NCBI GenBank assembly: GCA_035623075.1
Contig: DASPUC010000022.1
Span: 62,001 to 126,000, forward strand
From: Nitrospiraceae bacterium
GTDB lineage: Bacteria > Nitrospirota > Nitrospiria > Nitrospirales > Nitrospiraceae
Direction: 5' to 3'
DNA length: 64,000 bases
The translations under genes and the position numbers were made by a program. Shown in pieces: positions 40,031 through 47,981 of this stretch. Positions within the stretch are counted from its first letter, which is position 1, and each line of letters opens with the position of its first letter. The notes beneath the pieces are model-generated. The model was not told where the DNA came from. It made no database searches and saw nothing but the letters and a program-made list of their open reading frames with translations.

Positions 40031-40504
40031 ATGCCTGCACTGACACGATGGGAACCATTCGGGCGTTGGAATCCGTGGAAAGAACTTGAAGAAATGGAGA
40101 AACGCCTCTCCACTGTCTTTGGGCCTGCCCCGTCCACGGCCGGTGGCGACAAGAAGGAGGCGATCGCGGTCGCCGAATGGTCGCCGCTTGTCGACATCAC
40201 GGAAGACGACAAAGAGTATATCGTGAAGGCTGAGATCCCGGAGATGAAGAAAGAGGAGATCAAAATCAACGTGCACGACGACGTCCTCACAATCAGCGGC
40301 GAGCGAAAATACGAGAAGGAAGAAAAAGGCAAGAAGTATCATCGCGTCGAACGAGCCTATGGTAGCTTTATGCGAAGCTTCACTCTGCCGGAGGATGCGG
40401 ACGGCACCAAGGTTAACGCCGAGTACAAGGACGGCGTCCTCAAGGTGCGCTTGCCTAAGTCGGAAAAGGCGAAACCGAAGGCGATCGAAGTCAAGATCGC
40501 GTGA
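40031..40504 (+). CDS. Small heat-shock protein Hsp20
   Basis: 157 residues, an ATP-independent holdase. The N-terminal arm has the typical WEPFGRWNPWKELEEMEKRL. The alpha-crystallin domain runs from WSPLVDITEDDKEYIVKAEI through DDVLTISGERKYEKEEK and YGSFMRSFTLPEDADGTKV to the A-x-x-x-n-G-V-L signature (AEYKDGVLKVRLPK). An I-x-V-like tail (IEVKIA) allows oligomer assembly. The RBS AAGGAGGG is strong. It opens a plus-strand stress-gene run; a small RNA hairpin over the RBS is possible. Length and motifs are standard for class A bacterial Hsp20. Confidence 0.95.
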   Translation: MPALTRWEPFGRWNPWKELEEMEKRLSTVFGPAPSTAGGDKKEAIAVAEWSPLVDITEDDKEYIVKAEIPEMKKEEIKINVHDDVLTISGERKYEKEEKGKKYHRVERAYGSFMRSFTLPEDADGTKVNAEYKDGVLKVRLPKSEKAKPKAIEVKIA

Positions 40505-40511
40505 GCAAGAA

Positions 40512-40593
40512 AAGGTCAAGGTTGAGGTTTAGGGTGACACGAGAAAACCTGATCGGATGTACCTCAATCTGAACTTCGGCCCCAACCTTGATC
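40512..40593. repeat. Short-motif inverted repeat, family E
   Basis: Directly behind hsp20, GGTCAAGGTTGAGGTTTAGG (40513-40532) is mirrored by ACCTCAATCTGAAC and CCCCAACCTTGATC (40561-40593). The arms are imperfect, so the element looks decayed. The next feature, a micro-ORF, starts 15 bases later. Confidence 0.7.
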
Positions 40594-40607
40594 GAAGGGA
40601 GGTTGCC

Positions 40608-40763
40608 ATGTTTCGTCACCCACATTATCTGGAGGTGCCCTGGGACATTCACTGGCATCCTGAGACCACAAGACATCACCGTCATTTATGATGGTTGATC
40701 GGGGCATTGGTCCTTTTGGCGATGTTCTTGATTGGGGTTGGTGTCACGAGCGGACTCATGTAG
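40608..40763 (+). pseudogene. His-rich single-pass membrane micro-protein interrupted by UGA
   Basis: An ATG preceded by GGGAGG opens a frame with MFRHPHYLEVPWDIHWHPET and then TRHHRHL, followed by TGA (40689-40691). Immediately after, in the same frame, comes WLIGALVLLAMFLIGVGVTS and a TAG at 40761-40763. The second half is a perfect TM helix. Together they would make a roughly 51-residue protein with a His-rich soluble end. The TGA could derive from CGA (Arg) by one transition, or be read through. A His-rich 27-residue peptide would be made otherwise. Repeats lie on both sides. Confidence 0.6.
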
Positions 40764-40774
40764 GTTGAGAAGTC

Positions 40775-40869
40775 TATCTGGTTTGGTTGGTTTATGTGGT
40801 TTGTCTCGTTTCTTTAGTTCGAGGAACGACGTAAACCAGAAAACGACACAAACCCAGACCAACCGGATA
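40775..40869. repeat. Short-motif inverted repeat, family D
   Basis: TATCTGGTTTGGTTGGTTTA onward (40775-40821) is mirrored by GTAAACCAGAAAACGACACA and CCAGACCAACCGGATA (40830-40869). Imperfect arms of about 45 bases are built of TGGTTTG-type words. It ends 22 bases before the phosphoribosyltransferase gene. Confidence 0.78.
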
Positions 40870-40891
40870 AATCTGAGAGGCGAGGATAGCT

Positions 40892-41563
40892 GTGATCTTT
40901 CAGAACCGCGAAGAGGCCGGGCGGCGTCTGGCTGCCGAATTGATGCGCTATCGGGAGAATCTGGACGGCGTGATCCTGGCGCTTCCGCGAGGAGGAGTCG
41001 CCGTCGGCTATCAGCTCAGTCTGGGGCTGCATCTGCCGCTCGATGTCTTTATCACCCGAAAGTTGGGCGCCCCCGGCAATCCGGAATATGCACTCGGCGC
41101 GGTGGGTGAAACAGGGACGGTCTACCTTAACCCCACAGCGGTGGCCGAGTTCTGTCTCTCGCGGGCGGACGTTCAGGATCTGGTTAAGGGGCAACAGAAA
41201 GAAATCGTCCGTCGCCAAAATCTTTATCGACAAGGACGCAAGATGCCGACGGTTACGGATCGGACCGTGATTCTTGTCGACGACGGGATCGCCACCGGCT
41301 CCACCTTCTTTGCATCGGTCGAAGCGATCAGACACCTCAAGCCAAGACGCCTGATCGGGGCCATTCCGGTCGGGCCTGTGGATACGATTGCCGAAGGTAG
41401 GAAACGAGTCGATGAATTGGTCGTGCTTGCCACACCGATCCCCTTCTGGGCGGTCGGCAACCATTATGTAGATTTCACCCAGGTCGATGACCGCGACGTG
41501 GTGGAATACTTGAATCTGGCCGAGGAAGCGTTGCGTGAGCGAACACACTCATCGCCGGCCTAA
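40892..41563 (+). CDS. Phosphoribosyltransferase-family protein, copy 2
   Basis: 223 residues beginning with GTG at 40892 (GAGGCGAGGATAGCT upstream). It shares LALPRGGVAVGYQ, LHLPLDVFITRKL and the PRPP loop VILVDDGIATGSTFFAS with the copy at 20029. The predicted fold is a type I phosphoribosyltransferase; the hood region (AVGNHYVDFTQVDD) is divergent from purine enzymes, so no base specificity is assigned. It leads a four-gene run with BCAM0308-like, NTF2-like and Usp genes, all likely co-transcribed. Such genes are regularly found together in anaerobic-stress islands of proteobacteria. Confidence 0.9.
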   Translation: MIFQNREEAGRRLAAELMRYRENLDGVILALPRGGVAVGYQLSLGLHLPLDVFITRKLGAPGNPEYALGAVGETGTVYLNPTAVAEFCLSRADVQDLVKGQQKEIVRRQNLYRQGRKMPTVTDRTVILVDDGIATGSTFFASVEAIRHLKPRRLIGAIPVGPVDTIAEGRKRVDELVVLATPIPFWAVGNHYVDFTQVDDRDVVEYLNLAEEALRERTHSSPA

Positions 41564-41580
41564 ACGAGCAAGGAGCATTC

Positions 41581-42081
41581 ATGGCATCAAAAGTCAAAAC
41601 AGCGGCGGGCTTGAGCACGCGGCGCGATCGGACCGTCCAGGAATATCAGCATGACACCTATAAACTACGCGGCAAACTGAAGGAACCGACTGCCTGTCCC
41701 GACTGCGGAGCGGTATTCCACAAGGGACGCTGGATGTGGGGCCCCACACCCAAAGGGGCGGAGCAGGCCACCTGCCCCGCTTGTCACCGTGTGAGAGACA
41801 AGTATCCCAAGGGCTTGGTCACTATCAAAGGATCCTTCAAGGACCAACAGCACGAACAGGTCATTGGCGTCGTGAAAAACACGGAGGAGAAAGAAAAGAA
41901 GGAGCACCCCCTCTCTCGAATCATGGCCATTGAACAGCAACGTGATGGTCTGGTGATTTCCACGACCGATACCCATCTGCCCCGGCGGATCGGCGAGGCG
42001 TTAAAGCATGCCTATCACGGCGAGTTGGTATTGCAGTACGAACAGGATGAAGATTTCGCACGGGTCACATGGACTCGTTAA
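41581..42081 (+). CDS. BCAM0308-like zinc-binding protein
   Basis: 166 residues. Two Cys pairs, CPDCGAVFHKGRWMWG and CPACHRVRDKYPKG, form a zinc ribbon reminiscent of the NMD3 export-adaptor family. A second half with VTIKGSFKDQQHEQVIGVVK, IMAIEQQRDGLVISTTDTHL and RRIGEALKHAYHGELVLQYE matches what I recall as the BCAM0308 family of stress-island proteins. The function is unknown; ribosome or RNA binding is suggested by the fold relationship only. It follows the phosphoribosyltransferase by 17 bases. Confidence 0.8.
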   Translation: MASKVKTAAGLSTRRDRTVQEYQHDTYKLRGKLKEPTACPDCGAVFHKGRWMWGPTPKGAEQATCPACHRVRDKYPKGLVTIKGSFKDQQHEQVIGVVKNTEEKEKKEHPLSRIMAIEQQRDGLVISTTDTHLPRRIGEALKHAYHGELVLQYEQDEDFARVTWTR

Positions 42082-42130
42082 TCACGCCTTGGCCGGACTC
42101 AGATTCAACAACAGGAGAGGAGAGCTGAAG

Positions 42131-42682
42131 ATGATGACTGGACGAGAGTGCCGTGTGCTTCGGGTCGTTGACTTCCTGATGATCGTGGCCCTCTCCGTGA
42201 GCGGGCTCGGCACAGCAGAAGCCAAGATTGTCGTTCCCGCCGGTGCCGTGATCGAAGCGGACGATGCGACGGTGAGCAGCATCGTCACGATGTTCGAACG
42301 GGCTGAACAGGCCGTGAAGGCTCACGATCTTGAGACGCTGCTGAGTCTCTACTCTTCCCAATATAATTATCACGGACTCAAAAAGGTCGACGTCCGGAAA
42401 ATCTGGAAGGACCTCTTCGACGAGTATAGTGAGATCGCGAGCACTCACCTCTTCAGCAAAATCACGAAGGTCGGATCGGGAAGCCAGGCTGTCGTGGAAG
42501 TCACTTGCACCGGTCATTTGTGGGCGGTGTCCAAAACGAGTAAGCTCTATGTCCCGATCGATAGCTGGCATGAAGAAGTGCATTTTTTGATCTTCGAGGA
42601 CGGGGCCTGGCGCATTCGCGGGAATGTCGGGGAATCACCGCGTGTCCTGCCGTTTGGCACGGCGCCGCATCCCCTTTTCTGA
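42131..42682 (+). CDS. Secreted NTF2-like (SnoaL/DUF4440-type) protein, copy 2
   Basis: 183 residues from ATG 42131 with GGAGAGGAGAG upstream. Signal peptide (VVDFLMIVALSVSGLGTAEA) and NTF2-like domain: VSSIVTMFERAEQAVKAHDL, LYSSQYNYHGLKKVDVRKIW, STHLFSKITKVGSGSQAVVE and SWHEEVHFLIFEDGAWRIRG. It is paralogous to the protein at 13033-13617 over the full mature length, down to the APHPLF end. Both are predicted periplasmic. It belongs to the phosphoribosyltransferase-Usp run, whereas the other copy lies between two P-type ATPases. Confidence 0.82.
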   Translation: MMTGRECRVLRVVDFLMIVALSVSGLGTAEAKIVVPAGAVIEADDATVSSIVTMFERAEQAVKAHDLETLLSLYSSQYNYHGLKKVDVRKIWKDLFDEYSEIASTHLFSKITKVGSGSQAVVEVTCTGHLWAVSKTSKLYVPIDSWHEEVHFLIFEDGAWRIRGNVGESPRVLPFGTAPHPLF

Positions 42683-42750
42683 AATGCTGGGTGACCAATG
42701 TCACGCAGCCAGTCATTGTCGTGCATGCGGAGCCAGCGGACTATTTCTGG

Positions 42751-42780
42751 GCTGATAGCTGAACGCAGAAGGCTGAGCGG
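42751..42780. repeat. Family A repeat remnant
   Basis: GCTGATAGCTGAACGCAGAA and GGCTGAGCGG lie just upstream of the Usp RBS (GGAGG). Only one arm is clear, so this looks like a decayed copy of the 8086/9459/30466 element. Confidence 0.55.
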
Positions 42781-42792
42781 CAGGAGGTCTGG

Positions 42793-43650
42793 ATGAGAGT
42801 CGCGATCGGCGTTGATTGGTCAGATCAAGCCTTTACGGCTGTGACGCAAACGTTTCACGCGTACCGTCCAAGCGACGTCACGCTGGTCCATGGCGTCGAC
42901 CTTGGGATGTTTCAACACCCGATCGTCGCCGAAGCCGCTAACTTGCAGGGGTACGACGATTTCCGCAACGCGATGGTTGATGCAGGGCGACAACTCCTCG
43001 ACCGCGCAGCATCGATGCTCCCGCCCGGTGTCGACAAGGTCAGGCGGGTGAATGAAATCGGCAGCCCCGCTCACGTCATCCTCAACGCCGCGAAAACTGT
43101 CGCGGCCGACCTCATCGTCGTTGGTGCGCGCGGGCAAAGTCGCGCCACCGAAGTCGTGCTCGGCAGTGTCTCCCATCGTGTGCTCAGTCATGCTCCCTGC
43201 TCGACCTTGATCGTGAAGGGAAATGCCAAGCCGATTCGGCAGGTGCTCGTCGCCATTGAAGGACGCGAGGACGCGGGGTGGATCAAGAAGTGGCTGTTGA
43301 CGAACCCATTTACGGCTCCGGTGACACTGACCGTGCTCACGGTTGTTCCGTCCCTTCAAATGGCGGACCCGGCGAGCATCATCGGGTTTCAAGCCTGGTC
43401 GGGCACGGCGATGCGGTATGCGGAAGACCTCGTCAAAGAGGCCGGAGCGGGGCTGATGGGCGCCCATTATTCGGTCAGCACGCGTGCCGTCACGGGAGAA
43501 CCGGCAGCCATGGTGGCTCAGCAGGCGAGCACCATGGATTTGGTAGTGGCGGCTTCACATGGTCGCACGGGAGTGGAACGTTTCCTGTTAGGAAGCGTGT
43601 CTCATTCGATTGTCCACCAGGTGGCATGCCCCATTCTGGTGATTCGCTGA
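42793..43650 (+). CDS. Universal stress protein, tandem UspA domains
   Basis: 285 residues, the same length as the 20714 protein and clearly paralogous (GVDWSDQAFTAVTQTF, DVTLVHGVDLGMFQHPIVAE, AANLQGYDDFRNAM). The nucleotide loops are VVGARGQSRATEVVLGSVSH in domain one and VAASHGRTGVERFLLGSVSH in domain two; both keep the G-x(9)-GS part. GGAGG lies nine bases before the ATG. It closes the run that starts with the phosphoribosyltransferase. A cytochrome c gene follows after 38 bases. Confidence 0.93.
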   Translation: MRVAIGVDWSDQAFTAVTQTFHAYRPSDVTLVHGVDLGMFQHPIVAEAANLQGYDDFRNAMVDAGRQLLDRAASMLPPGVDKVRRVNEIGSPAHVILNAAKTVAADLIVVGARGQSRATEVVLGSVSHRVLSHAPCSTLIVKGNAKPIRQVLVAIEGREDAGWIKKWLLTNPFTAPVTLTVLTVVPSLQMADPASIIGFQAWSGTAMRYAEDLVKEAGAGLMGAHYSVSTRAVTGEPAAMVAQQASTMDLVVAASHGRTGVERFLLGSVSHSIVHQVACPILVIR

Positions 43651-43688
43651 AGCACATGGCGTTGACCTGTTGCAAAGGAGTCAATCCG

Positions 43689-44051
43689 ATGAAAGAAACA
43701 GTTTCGGCAATCGCCATTCTTCTCGTCGTCCTCGGGACCTCATGGGTATCGGCACAAACGGTGCGAGGTAACCCAAAAGCGGGGCAGACGATTTATCAAC
43801 AACATTGTGTCCGCTGCCACGGAGACAAACTGGAGGGGAAAGGCCCGGACTGGAAGGATTTAATCGTTCCGCCTGCCAATCTCACATCGCAGGTCCTACG
43901 GTCGAAGACCGATTGGGAACTCCTCGTCGCCATCTCAAACGGCGTGCTGTTCAGCCCGATGCACAGTTTTCGTGGAAAGCTGACGGATGAGCAAATGCTG
44001 GACGTGCTGTCATACATCAGGTCCGTGGCGCCGTTCGAAGCCGTCAGCTAG
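43689..44051 (+). CDS. Periplasmic monoheme cytochrome c
   Basis: 120 residues from ATG 43689 with AAAGGAG upstream. A signal peptide (AIAILLVVLGTSWVSAQ) precedes a class I cytochrome c domain with heme site CVRCHGDK (Cys40, Cys43, His44); the axial Met is probably in FSPMHSFRGKLTD, and the C-terminal helix is MLDVLSYIRSVAPF. Resembles the soluble caa3-donor or SoxX-type small cytochromes; the partner is unknown. The following glutaredoxin-membrane fusion starts about 10 bases after its stop, so they are probably functionally linked. Confidence 0.9.
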   Translation: MKETVSAIAILLVVLGTSWVSAQTVRGNPKAGQTIYQQHCVRCHGDKLEGKGPDWKDLIVPPANLTSQVLRSKTDWELLVAISNGVLFSPMHSFRGKLTDEQMLDVLSYIRSVAPFEAVS

Positions 44052-44061
44052 ACCTCAAATT

Positions 44062-45219
44062 GTGTGCCGACAACCACCAGGTCTCCAAAGATTCATTGCC
44101 GGACTCCTGACATCCTTGTTGTTTGTGGTCCTGTGCGGCGGGACACAGGTCTCTGCCGGTGAAGCCCCCCCGGATCTCGAAGTCTTCGTCCGCGCTGGCT
44201 GCCCCCACTGCGAGGCAGCGAAGATCTTCCTTGAGGAACTTCGGCATGAACGACCCTCCCTCCACATCGCCGTCTACGACATCGCCGAAGACTCAGTCGC
44301 GCGGCAACGCCTTGACACGTTGACCATCGAACGGGGAATGACCGCCGTCGGTGTTCCCACATTCCTCATCGGCACAGAAATGATCGTCGGATTTCTCTCA
44401 TCCAACACGACCGGAGCAGCGGTCCGGGCCAAACTCGACCAGCGTATTCAAAGCGCCGTAGCCCAGCCGACGGTTGAGGGAATCCCGACGAAGTGGTTCG
44501 GTGAACTTCGAGTCAGGGACTTGGGCCTTCCTCTTTTTACGATCGCGATCGGCTTGCTAGACGGATTTAACCCCTGTTCGATGTGGGTGCTGTTGTTCAT
44601 GCTCTCCCTGTTGGCAAGCCTGGCCAACCGAATGAAGATGCTGCTCATTGCCGGAACATTTGTGGCCGTCGAAGGCGTTGCGTACTTCGCCTTCATGGCG
44701 GCTTGGCTGAACTTGTTTTTAATCATTGGTCTTTCTCGCATCACGGAACTGATCCTAGGCGGCATCGGGGTCTTCGCCGGAGCGGTCCACATCAAAGACT
44801 TCTGGGCATTCAAACGCGGCATCTCCCTCGGTATCCCCGAGGCGGCGAAACCCGGCCTGTATGAGCGGATCAGGAAGATCTTGCAGGCTGAGAACATGAC
44901 CGCAGCGCTCGTCGGAACAGTGCTGTTCGCCGTGCTCGTGCAGGCGGTCGAGTTATTGTGTACGGCGGGACTACCGGCTCTTTATACACGCATTCTCACG
45001 TTGCAACAGCTTGACTGGCTGGTCTATTACGGATATCTGGCTCTGTACAATATTGCGTACATGTTGGACGATGTCATTGTTCTCGTAGTCGGAGTCATCA
45101 CGATCAGCCACTACCGGCTTCAAGAGCGAGAAGGCCGTTGGCTGAATTTAATCAGTGGGACCGTGATGGCGGGGCTGGGACTCGTGCTTTTGGTGAAGCC
45201 CGCCTGGCTGGCACCTTAG
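44062..45219 (+). CDS. Exported glutaredoxin-like domain fused to a DsbD/CcdA-like membrane domain
   Basis: About 385 residues. The N-terminus has a signal/TM segment (FIAGLLTSLLFVVLCGGTQV), then a thioredoxin-fold domain with active-site-like CPHC in VRAGCPHCEAAKIF and cis-Pro region VGVPTFLIGTEM. From residue about 165 there are six or seven TM helices (LPLFTIAIGLLDGFNPCSMW, where NPCSMW resembles the CcdA-type cysteine region, and VLFAVLVQAVELLCTAGLP, the second conserved Cys). It probably moves reducing equivalents across the membrane to the exported domain. GTG 44062 is proposed because the longer frame overlaps the cytochrome gene; the RBS is weak. Confidence 0.78.
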   Translation: MCRQPPGLQRFIAGLLTSLLFVVLCGGTQVSAGEAPPDLEVFVRAGCPHCEAAKIFLEELRHERPSLHIAVYDIAEDSVARQRLDTLTIERGMTAVGVPTFLIGTEMIVGFLSSNTTGAAVRAKLDQRIQSAVAQPTVEGIPTKWFGELRVRDLGLPLFTIAIGLLDGFNPCSMWVLLFMLSLLASLANRMKMLLIAGTFVAVEGVAYFAFMAAWLNLFLIIGLSRITELILGGIGVFAGAVHIKDFWAFKRGISLGIPEAAKPGLYERIRKILQAENMTAALVGTVLFAVLVQAVELLCTAGLPALYTRILTLQQLDWLVYYGYLALYNIAYMLDDVIVLVVGVITISHYRLQEREGRWLNLISGTVMAGLGLVLLVKPAWLAP

Positions 45220-45230
45220 ATAGGCTCAAT

Positions 45231-47981
45231 GTGAAGCACTTTCGTCCTCTCTATATTCCGCCCCTGAGGTCCGATCGTGTTGAGTCGGGTTCGCTCATTC
45301 TTCGCGATGGAACGACTGCGACGATTCGACCGTCCGAACCGACCGACGCGGGCATGATGCAACAGTTCGTGGACCGTTTATCGCCGGAATCGAGACGGCA
45401 CCGGTTTTTCTCTGAGAGCACGCCGCCCGCCGACATCATCGCGGCTCTGTGTAATTCGACCAATCCCCGCTCGCAACTCACGCTCATCGTGACACGGTTT
45501 TGGGAAGGCACCCTGCGCATGATTGCAGCCGGCTCCTACTGGGCGAAGGACTCACATACGGCTGAGGTGGCGATGGCCGTCGACGACGGGTTTCACGGCA
45601 AGGGCTTGGGCACGTTGCTCCTCGAACGTCTCGCCTTAGAGGCCATCCGTCACAGGTTTACCCGCTTATGGGCTGTGACCCATGCGGAGAATCTCGCGAT
45701 GCGCGAAGTGTTCCGAGAATCCGGGTTTACAGCCCATGAGGGCTATGAAGGCGACGACATGGAAGTTGAGTTGTCGCTGATTCCCACGGAGACAACCGTC
45801 ACCCGTGCGGAGGTACGGGAGCGGCTCGCTACCACCGCCTCGCTTCGACCGTTCTTCCACCCGCAGTCCGTGGCCGTCATCGGCGCATCACGCGATCAGA
45901 AGAGCATCGGATTTCGCCTGCTGGATGCGCTGGTGACGAATCAGTTTCGAGGATCTGTTTATCCGGTGAATCCGAACGCTGCGGAGATCGCCGGAGTCCG
46001 CACGTACCCATCCTTACGATCGGTCCCGGAACCGATCGAACTGGCCATCGTTGCCGTGCCCTGGGACAAGGTGCTCTCGGTGGTCGACGATTGTGCGGAG
46101 AAGGGCATTCGAGCGGTAGTGGTCATTACGGCCGGCTTTGCCGAAGTGGGAGCGACGGGGGCAGCGCTCCAGAACCGATTGCTAGAAAAGGTCCGTCAGC
46201 ACGGCATGCGCATGGTCGGCCCGAATTGCTTCGGCTTGATGAACACAGATCCAACCGTACAGCTCAATGCCACCTTCACCTCACAGTTTCCTCTCCCCGG
46301 GCGCGTCGCGATGTCGTCGCAAAGTGGTGCCCTCGGTATCGCCACCCTTGCCGGAGCGCGCCGTTTCTATCTGGGAATCTCATCCTTTGTCAGCGTGGGA
46401 AACAAGGCCGACGTCTCGACCAACGATCTCCTGCAATATTGGGAGGAAGACCCGGCCACAGACGTCATCCTCCTCTATGTGGAATCCTTCGGTAATCCTC
46501 GCCGGTTCGCTCGCATCGCGCGACGTGTGAGTCGTCGCAAACCAATCGTGGCCGTGAAGGCCGGCCGGTCGCAATCCGGACGACGCGCCGCCAGTTCCCA
46601 CACGGCGGCGCTTGCCGCCAGCGATGTGGCCGTCGAGGCCATGTTTCGTCAGGCCGGCGTGATTCGCGCTGAGACGCTCGACGAGATGTTGGAGTTGGCC
46701 AGCGGTCTGGCCGCACAACCATTGCCGTCCGGACGTCGCGTGGGCATCATCACGAATGCGGGAGGACCGGCCATTCTCTGCACCGATGCGTGCGAGGCAG
46801 GAGGCTTGGTTGTTCCGGAGCTGTCCTCCGGCACGAAGGCATCACTCGCGGGCTTTCTTCCTTCGGCCGCTGCCCTGAACAATCCCATCGATCTCATCGC
46901 GTCGGCTACACCCGAGCAATATGCCAAGGTGATCGAAACGATACTGGCGTCGGACGAAGTCGATGCATTGATCATCCTCTATATATCCGTGACCGTAGTC
47001 GACACGGCGGGAATCGCTCAGGGCATCAAGGCAGGAATAGAGAATGGGCGAAAGACAGGGCCCAAGAGTAAACCCGTGCTTATCGGTTGGATGGCGGAAG
47101 GCGACTTGGGTCGGGAATTTTCCTTTCCCACGGAAACGATCCCAACCTATTCCCTGCCGGAAAGTCCCGCCTTCGTCATCAGCAAAGCAGCGACCTATGC
47201 GGAGTGGCGTCAACAATCCGTCGGCATGGTTCCCGACTTCGACGATCTGGAGCTGTCTGCCGCAAGGCAGATCTGTGTAACCGCCCTAGCCCAACGAGGA
47301 GCGGGCTGGCTCACGACGGAGGAGACCAGAAGCCTGTTGAACTCGATGAGGCTGCCCGTCCAATCCGGCGGAGTCGCAAGAACAGCCGATGAGGCGGCGG
47401 CCTTGGCCAAGAAGATTGGTTATCCGGTGGCCGTGAAGCTGGCTTCGCATCAGATCGTGCATAAGACAGAAATCGGCGGGGTTCAGTTGAACCTCGTGGA
47501 TGAACGGGCGGTTCGCAAGGCGTTCGAATCAATCAGAACAAGCCTGGTCCAGAGCAACCAACTGCAGGCCATGGAGGGAGTCCTTGTCCAGCCTATGGTG
47601 ACCGGCGGTGTCGAGGTGATGGTCGGGGTCGCGAACGATCCATCGTTTGGACCCTTGATCGCCTTTGGCCTCGGAGGCATTCATGTCGAGATTCTTGGCG
47701 ATGTGCAGTTCCGCATCACACCGCTCACCGAGCGCGACGCCACCGAGATGGTCCGTGGCATAAAGGGCTATCGCTTGCTTTCAGGCTATCGCGGACATCC
47801 GCCAGCCGACATTGAAGCCATTGAAGACGTGTTGCTGCGAGTCTCTCGCCTGGTCGAAGAAATCCCAGAGATCAGCGAGCTCGACCTAAATCCGATCTTT
47901 GCCCTCCCGCCTGGCCAAGGCTGCCGGATCGCAGACGCCAGGATTCGCCTGGATCATACTTCACCCAAACCCGCGGTCTAA
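45231..47981 (+). CDS. GNAT acetyltransferase fused to ADP-forming acyl-CoA synthetase
   Basis: About 916 residues. Residues 15-190 are a GNAT domain (LRDGTTATIRPSEPTDAGMM, GFHGKGLGTLLLERLALEAI). The CoA-binding domain starts FFHPQSVAVIGASRDQKSIG; the ligase-CoA part includes MVGPNCFGLMNTD, SSQSGALGIA and the phospho-His segment in SSHTAALAASDVAVE. The C-terminal ATP-grasp has YPVAVKLASHQIVHKTEIGG and ISELDLNPIFALPPGQG. Pat/PatZ-type lysine acetyltransferases usually carry GNAT at the C-terminus; here it is N-terminal. With intact catalytic His it may conserve energy as ATP from acetyl-CoA. GTG 45231 is the likely start. Confidence 0.88.
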   Translation: MKHFRPLYIPPLRSDRVESGSLILRDGTTATIRPSEPTDAGMMQQFVDRLSPESRRHRFFSESTPPADIIAALCNSTNPRSQLTLIVTRFWEGTLRMIAAGSYWAKDSHTAEVAMAVDDGFHGKGLGTLLLERLALEAIRHRFTRLWAVTHAENLAMREVFRESGFTAHEGYEGDDMEVELSLIPTETTVTRAEVRERLATTASLRPFFHPQSVAVIGASRDQKSIGFRLLDALVTNQFRGSVYPVNPNAAEIAGVRTYPSLRSVPEPIELAIVAVPWDKVLSVVDDCAEKGIRAVVVITAGFAEVGATGAALQNRLLEKVRQHGMRMVGPNCFGLMNTDPTVQLNATFTSQFPLPGRVAMSSQSGALGIATLAGARRFYLGISSFVSVGNKADVSTNDLLQYWEEDPATDVILLYVESFGNPRRFARIARRVSRRKPIVAVKAGRSQSGRRAASSHTAALAASDVAVEAMFRQAGVIRAETLDEMLELASGLAAQPLPSGRRVGIITNAGGPAILCTDACEAGGLVVPELSSGTKASLAGFLPSAAALNNPIDLIASATPEQYAKVIETILASDEVDALIILYISVTVVDTAGIAQGIKAGIENGRKTGPKSKPVLIGWMAEGDLGREFSFPTETIPTYSLPESPAFVISKAATYAEWRQQSVGMVPDFDDLELSAARQICVTALAQRGAGWLTTEETRSLLNSMRLPVQSGGVARTADEAAALAKKIGYPVAVKLASHQIVHKTEIGGVQLNLVDERAVRKAFESIRTSLVQSNQLQAMEGVLVQPMVTGGVEVMVGVANDPSFGPLIAFGLGGIHVEILGDVQFRITPLTERDATEMVRGIKGYRLLSGYRGHPPADIEAIEDVLLRVSRLVEEIPEISELDLNPIFALPPGQGCRIADARIRLDHTSPKPAV

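Follow-up and report, generated by a model that had tools for sequence, protein, structure and literature searches.

Does the in-frame UGA in a short reading frame at 40608-40763 of the window (the whole 64,000-nucleotide stretch of Nitrospiraceae DNA analysed here) represent a recoded codon, or has a small gene been broken by a point mutation? A sequence-only reading of this DNA had offered both answers, either UGA readthrough or recoding to give a 51-residue protein, or a single C-to-T change that disrupted the gene. We conclude that this is probably the local copy of a lineage-restricted, single-span membrane microprotein broken by a recent TGG to TGA change at codon 28, which would make it a loss-of-function allele; a base-call error ranks second and leaky, functional readthrough third.

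Organization of the interrupted gene

The frame is on the forward strand and translates as MFRHPHYLEVPWDIHWHPETTRHHRHL up to the premature TGA and as WLIGALVLLAMFLIGVGVTSGLM from there to its terminal stop codon, 51 residues in length. The elements listed in the sequence-only reading are all present. A Shine-Dalgarno sequence (GGGAGG, 40597-40602) is situated 5 nt ahead of the ATG, a His-rich soluble half (40608-40691) consists of 27 codons with seven His residues and the TGA itself (40689-40691), and the remaining 23 codons are strongly hydrophobic and form a transmembrane helix segment that ends with a TAG stop (40692-40763). The Kyte-Doolittle mean over 19 residues peaks at 2.66, in the segment that starts at Leu27 with the stop position omitted. 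Of the 97 distinct copies of the gene, the window copy counted, 89 have a GGAG motif directly upstream. Just 3' of the gene is an imperfect, interspersed palindrome (40770-40872) that resembles a REP-type element and has four additional, weaker matches in the same genome as well as matches in several related genomes; RNA folding of 40765-40880 gives a z of -3.07.

The microprotein gene is the second member of a cluster of genes transcribed in the same direction (40031-47981). It is preceded by hsp20 (Hsp20/alpha-crystallin, PF00011; 40031-40504) and followed by a phosphoribosyltransferase gene (PF00156; 40892-41563), a gene for a BCAM0308 (lxa) family protein (NF040826; 41581-42081; 215.7 bits against a cut-off of 100, E 2.4e-64) that also exceeds the Pfam NMD3 cut-off, a gene for a SnoaL-like protein (below the Pfam cut-off), and a universal stress protein gene with two PF00582 stretches (42793-43650). 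Genes for a cytochrome c, a glutaredoxin-domain protein and an acyl-CoA ligase-like protein (below NCBIfam cut-offs) complete the cluster. We chose to define an lxa-type locus as one with a BCAM0308-family gene together with Hsp20 and Usp genes; all three are present here, and by gene content the cluster appears to be an lxa-like stress cluster.

Distribution and synteny of the microprotein

Of 175 family genomes searched at the protein level, 108 have strong matches (best E of 1.1e-8 or lower; counted by hand), the window genome and 107 others; 141 genomes match at E<=1, and the 33 weaker ones, including fragments in G149 and G192, were excluded. The window genome has a single copy at E<=10. 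Most copies are 48-54 residues long, and the window copy is homologous to them over its whole length and occupies the same position, on the same strand, between the hsp20 and phosphoribosyltransferase genes. Across 94 distinct loci, hsp20 is upstream in 85, a phosphoribosyltransferase gene is downstream in 92 and both are found together in 83; 82 of the loci also have a match to a universal stress protein no more than 3.5 kb downstream. In the nine loci lacking hsp20 there was space of 1.5 kb or more, and one of the two lacking the phosphoribosyltransferase gene (L150) ends 303 bases past the microprotein start. The widespread matches and conserved synteny argue that the 51-codon frame is not a product of chance. 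One genome (G135) carries two microprotein copies (L056 and L057), and at both loci the copy is preceded by an hsp20 match and followed by one to phosphoribosyltransferase.

A pattern-based scan of GTDB r220, using one genome per species, gave 77 loci, with N. defluvii (FP929003.1) and N. moscoviensis (NZ_CP011801.1) among them and no Burkholderia locus. The record titles name Nitrospira, Nitrospiraceae, Nitrospirae or Nitrospirota, except for two 'uncultured Nitrosospira' bins that we take to be mislabelled. Of 395 genomes sampled across the phylum, 85 have a match at E<=0.01, six of them outside the family (best E 7.3e-4); the matches in these six we take as chance resemblance among membrane segments. 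With the 'Nitrosospira' titles read in this way, strong matches to the microprotein appear to be limited to Nitrospirota.

The codon at the position of the TGA

The sequence-only reading had proposed that the codon be compared in relatives, and had named as refuting either the lack of a homologous frame there or a stop in every one of them; neither was observed. We gathered 97 distinct sequences, the window copy included, and removed two fragments (L054 and L055, both from G192) prior to alignment. In the 94 other aligned copies the column contains TGG in 56, CGG in nine, CGA in one, a gap in 28 and TGA in none, such that the residue is Trp in 56 and Arg in ten, and is never Cys. All 45 of the others that are gap-free around the site have Trp encoded by TGG, and the inferred change is therefore TGG to TGA, a G-to-A change on the coding strand. 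The proposed one-base change thus stands, but it is C-to-T only on the non-coding strand. Origin by C-to-T from a CGA (Arg) codon was considered and rejected, as each of the ten rows with Arg is shorter by two residues around the site and the 45 gap-free others have Trp. A separate tally with TGG in 41 of 42 rows is partly circular because its rows were picked by Trp at codons 28/29, and we prefer the counts from the 94 copies and the gap-free set.

The window copy is therefore homologous but interrupted, with intact relatives and a lesion private to its own lineage. In the most plausible course of events, the intact ancestor would have encoded a single-span membrane microprotein between hsp20 and the phosphoribosyltransferase gene of a Nitrospiraceae stress cluster, and a recent point mutation in the window genome would have converted TGG to TGA at codon 28. 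The product would be cut to a 27-residue His-rich peptide that lacks the membrane helix, making this a newly arisen loss-of-function allele, with the rest of the cluster intact. This account builds on the observed homology, synteny, codon comparison and absence of decay; we infer that the mutation is real and not a base-call error, and that the shortened peptide has no activity. The second of the two original proposals, breakage of a small gene by one change, is supported in that intact homologues are widespread, none of the 94 others has the TGA, and stops are found elsewhere in the gene in three genomes.

Age of the stop and the possibility of a base-call error

The frame past the stop shows no decay. 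Each of the 50 sense residues of the window copy is found in relatives at the same column. Compared with 37 intact copies, the post-stop frame has a mean pS of 0.71 and a mean pN of 0.20, and the ratio of 0.28 is the lowest among the 38 sequences ranked; pairs of intact copies have a mean pS of 0.53 and pN of 0.24 over the same stretch. (Four of 42 rows were removed for a stop inside the 51 codons, leaving 37 intact copies and the window copy.) Some 39% of single-base changes past the stop would give a stop or an unseen residue, none of which is observed, and a simple transition-weighted count puts an upper bound of about 6 neutral changes on these 69 nt (95%). The window copy resembles intact copies in this regard, and 72 of the 95 rows likewise have no private residue past the stop position. 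In a tree of the 75 distinct sequences among 92 hsp20 and phosphoribosyltransferase pairs, the nearest relative of the window genome is 0.33 substitutions per site away, and with no close sister the changes since the stop cannot be counted on a short branch. Because the frame is undecayed, the stop would appear to be young, or a base-call error, or read through, and these data cannot choose among the three. This counts against the mutation reading to the extent that a translated frame, or an intact gene containing a base-call error, would also be expected to show no decay.

That the TGA is a sequencing or assembly error, and that the gene is actually intact in the organism, is unlikely, even though the assembly is a draft of 58 contigs, the difference is of one base in an otherwise undamaged frame, and the window genome is the sole member of its genus among the listed relatives. 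The change is a substitution rather than an indel in a run, and interrupted copies occur in other genomes too, among them one that is listed as a single contig, which makes it probable that genuine loss takes place. Internal stops are present in four of the 108 genomes, the window genome (G000) and three more. G120 has a TAA at codon 40 on a 4.13-Mb contig in a genome listed as one contig, G059 has a TAG at the neighbouring Trp with the start region altered too, and G197 has a TAG at codon 33 in a stretch that also contains N letters. In three further genomes (G058, G011 and G018) hsp20 adjoins the phosphoribosyltransferase gene without a detectable microprotein between them. These were drawn from 12 genomes picked for absence of a good microprotein match, of which eight have a phosphoribosyltransferase match at E<=1e-20, and five of those eight are without hsp20 within about 1.5 kb. 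With stops in three other genomes and three genomes having the neighbours but no recognisable copy, loss (or absence) of the gene appears to recur occasionally.

Fragmentary copies were also observed. In G058, the interval that separates hsp20 from the phosphoribosyltransferase gene (L261, 1340-1498) has a short stretch that by eye is like the last microprotein codons, and is perhaps a deletion remnant. In G192 there are microprotein gene fragments at two places (L054 and L055), and the gene is apparently broken up.

Decoding of the UGA

A third explanation is that tRNA-Trp reads the UGA at a low level, giving some full-length protein with the stop serving as a dosage brake. We regard this as quite improbable, and slightly more doubtful again is a specific form of it in which the UGA acts as a mild brake, its leaky reading by tRNA-Trp yields a small, stress-variable amount of microprotein, and selection on this trickle preserves the post-stop frame. 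The undecayed frame and the identity of the lost codon as Trp are in its favour, as is an A at position 24 (by our own count) of the only tRNA-Trp found, which we take to be the place of the Hirsh suppressor change; an A at this position is common in bacteria. Against it, the base following the UGA is a U, a good termination context, release factor RF2 is present (prfB, 528.5 bits against a cut-off of 370), TGA terminates three of the eight listed cluster genes (hsp20, the SnoaL-like gene and usp), and none of the 94 aligned others shares the stop, which conserved readthrough would require of orthologues. A hairpin 3' of the UGA was rejected, as the folding there is no better than that of shuffled sequences (z -0.57, with 59 of 200 shuffles folding at least as well). 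A special tRNA-Trp was rejected too, as its anticodon stem has all 5 bp and a 100% identical tRNA-Trp is found in G004 and G014, which belong to two other genera, so that nothing about it is particular to the window genome. Passages of PMC13092985 give the Hirsh change as G24A and tie a tRNA-Trp variant with a 4-bp anticodon stem to UGA decoding; the stem here is 5 bp and that variant is thus not present. Passages of Belinky et al. 2021 (PMC7918605) describe UGA as a leaky stop that is very rarely read as Trp in E. coli and S. typhimurium.

A changed genetic code can be rejected. ARAGORN reports a tRNA at each of 43 tRNA places, with a single tRNA-Trp (anticodon CCA) and no UCA anticodon among them; tRNA-Ile(GAU) and tRNA-Ala(UGC) are also absent, so this set may be incomplete and some tRNA genes may be missing from the assembly. 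RF2 has been retained and cluster genes end in TGA, so neither mark of a genome-wide UGA=Trp code, a tRNA-Trp(UCA) or RF2 loss, is seen.

It is very unlikely that the gene is split, with the 27-residue peptide as a product in its own right and the helix started separately at an in-frame TTG at 40695. This TTG is two codons past the TGA, which itself overlaps with an out-of-frame ATG (ATGATG); a ribosome-binding site was not seen just ahead of the TTG, and none of the 94 aligned others has a stop at the same point.

Selenocysteine insertion was suggested by the in-frame UGA and by a tRNA-Sec match close to the cut-off, and the sequence-only reading had recommended a check for selenocysteine genes. 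In the window genome the best selB match is 116.2 bits against a cut-off of 242.25, and the best tRNA-Sec match is 45.2 against 47 bits. Both models match in all 14 control genomes, mostly below cut-off (above it in two for selB and five for tRNA-Sec), and weak matches are thus uninformative. ARAGORN identifies the near-miss as tRNA-Ser(UGA), and the other seven places as Ser, Leu, Gly-region, Arg and Gln tRNAs. With none of the 43 tRNA places having a UCA anticodon, no Cys or selenocysteine at the site in homologues and no folding past the UGA beyond that of shuffles, this explanation is barely credible, and is refuted unless selB and selC sit in assembly gaps. Readthrough or recoding, the first of the two answers offered at the outset, is therefore left without positive support, the preferred account being the loss of a small gene by a TGG to TGA change.

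Predicted structure and role

The intact microprotein has a conserved N-terminal motif, RHPxYLxxPW. AlphaFold2 models of 24 named relatives have helices at 14-20 and 23-50 with a mean pLDDT of 73.7, and are not informative on function. The intact protein presumably resides in the inner membrane with its His-rich segment inside, and the motif and single helix suggest that it could be a membrane-anchored adaptor with this side facing inwards. Its hsp20, BCAM0308-family and universal stress neighbours point to a role under stress or low oxygen.

None of six members scanned reaches a Pfam or NCBIfam cut-off, and DUF6480, FliL and other named families were rejected, with sub-threshold matches only. 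We found no paper on the microprotein in the open-licence PMC literature. Being apparently limited to Nitrospirota, outside Pfam and NCBIfam families, conserved in its place in a stress cluster and occasionally lost, it is a candidate, open to testing, for a small membrane protein with a stress-related role in nitrite oxidisers. The modest gain from this locus is an unnamed microprotein family; as a decoding story it is ordinary.

Comparison with known systems

Among named families, DUF6480 (PF20088) has a weak match from one of the six relatives scanned (residues 11-45, 14.9 bits against a curated cut-off of 25). The window copy is like the unnamed Nitrospiraceae microprotein found between hsp20 and phosphoribosyltransferase genes in its sequence, length, cluster position and ribosome-binding site, and differs in being the only one of 95 aligned distinct copies with a TGA at codon 28.

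According to passages of PMC6127331, a heat shock protein and six universal stress proteins are products of the lxa (low-oxygen-activated) locus of Burkholderia cenocepacia, the locus to which the name of the BCAM0308 family model refers. BCAM0308-family, Hsp20 and universal stress genes are common to that locus and to the window cluster, a likeness in the kinds of gene present.

For the stop itself, the comparison is with in-frame stops that accompany purifying selection on bacterial genes. Passages of Belinky et al. 2021 (PMC7918605) present bacterial in-frame stops as widespread and as tending to persist only on the timescale of population polymorphism. The stops in that study were required in at least two species, whereas the TGA here is known from one genome. 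The window copy is like them in having a single stop and an undecayed frame and in being apparently short-lived, and the short persistence that they describe is consistent with the TGA in this gene.
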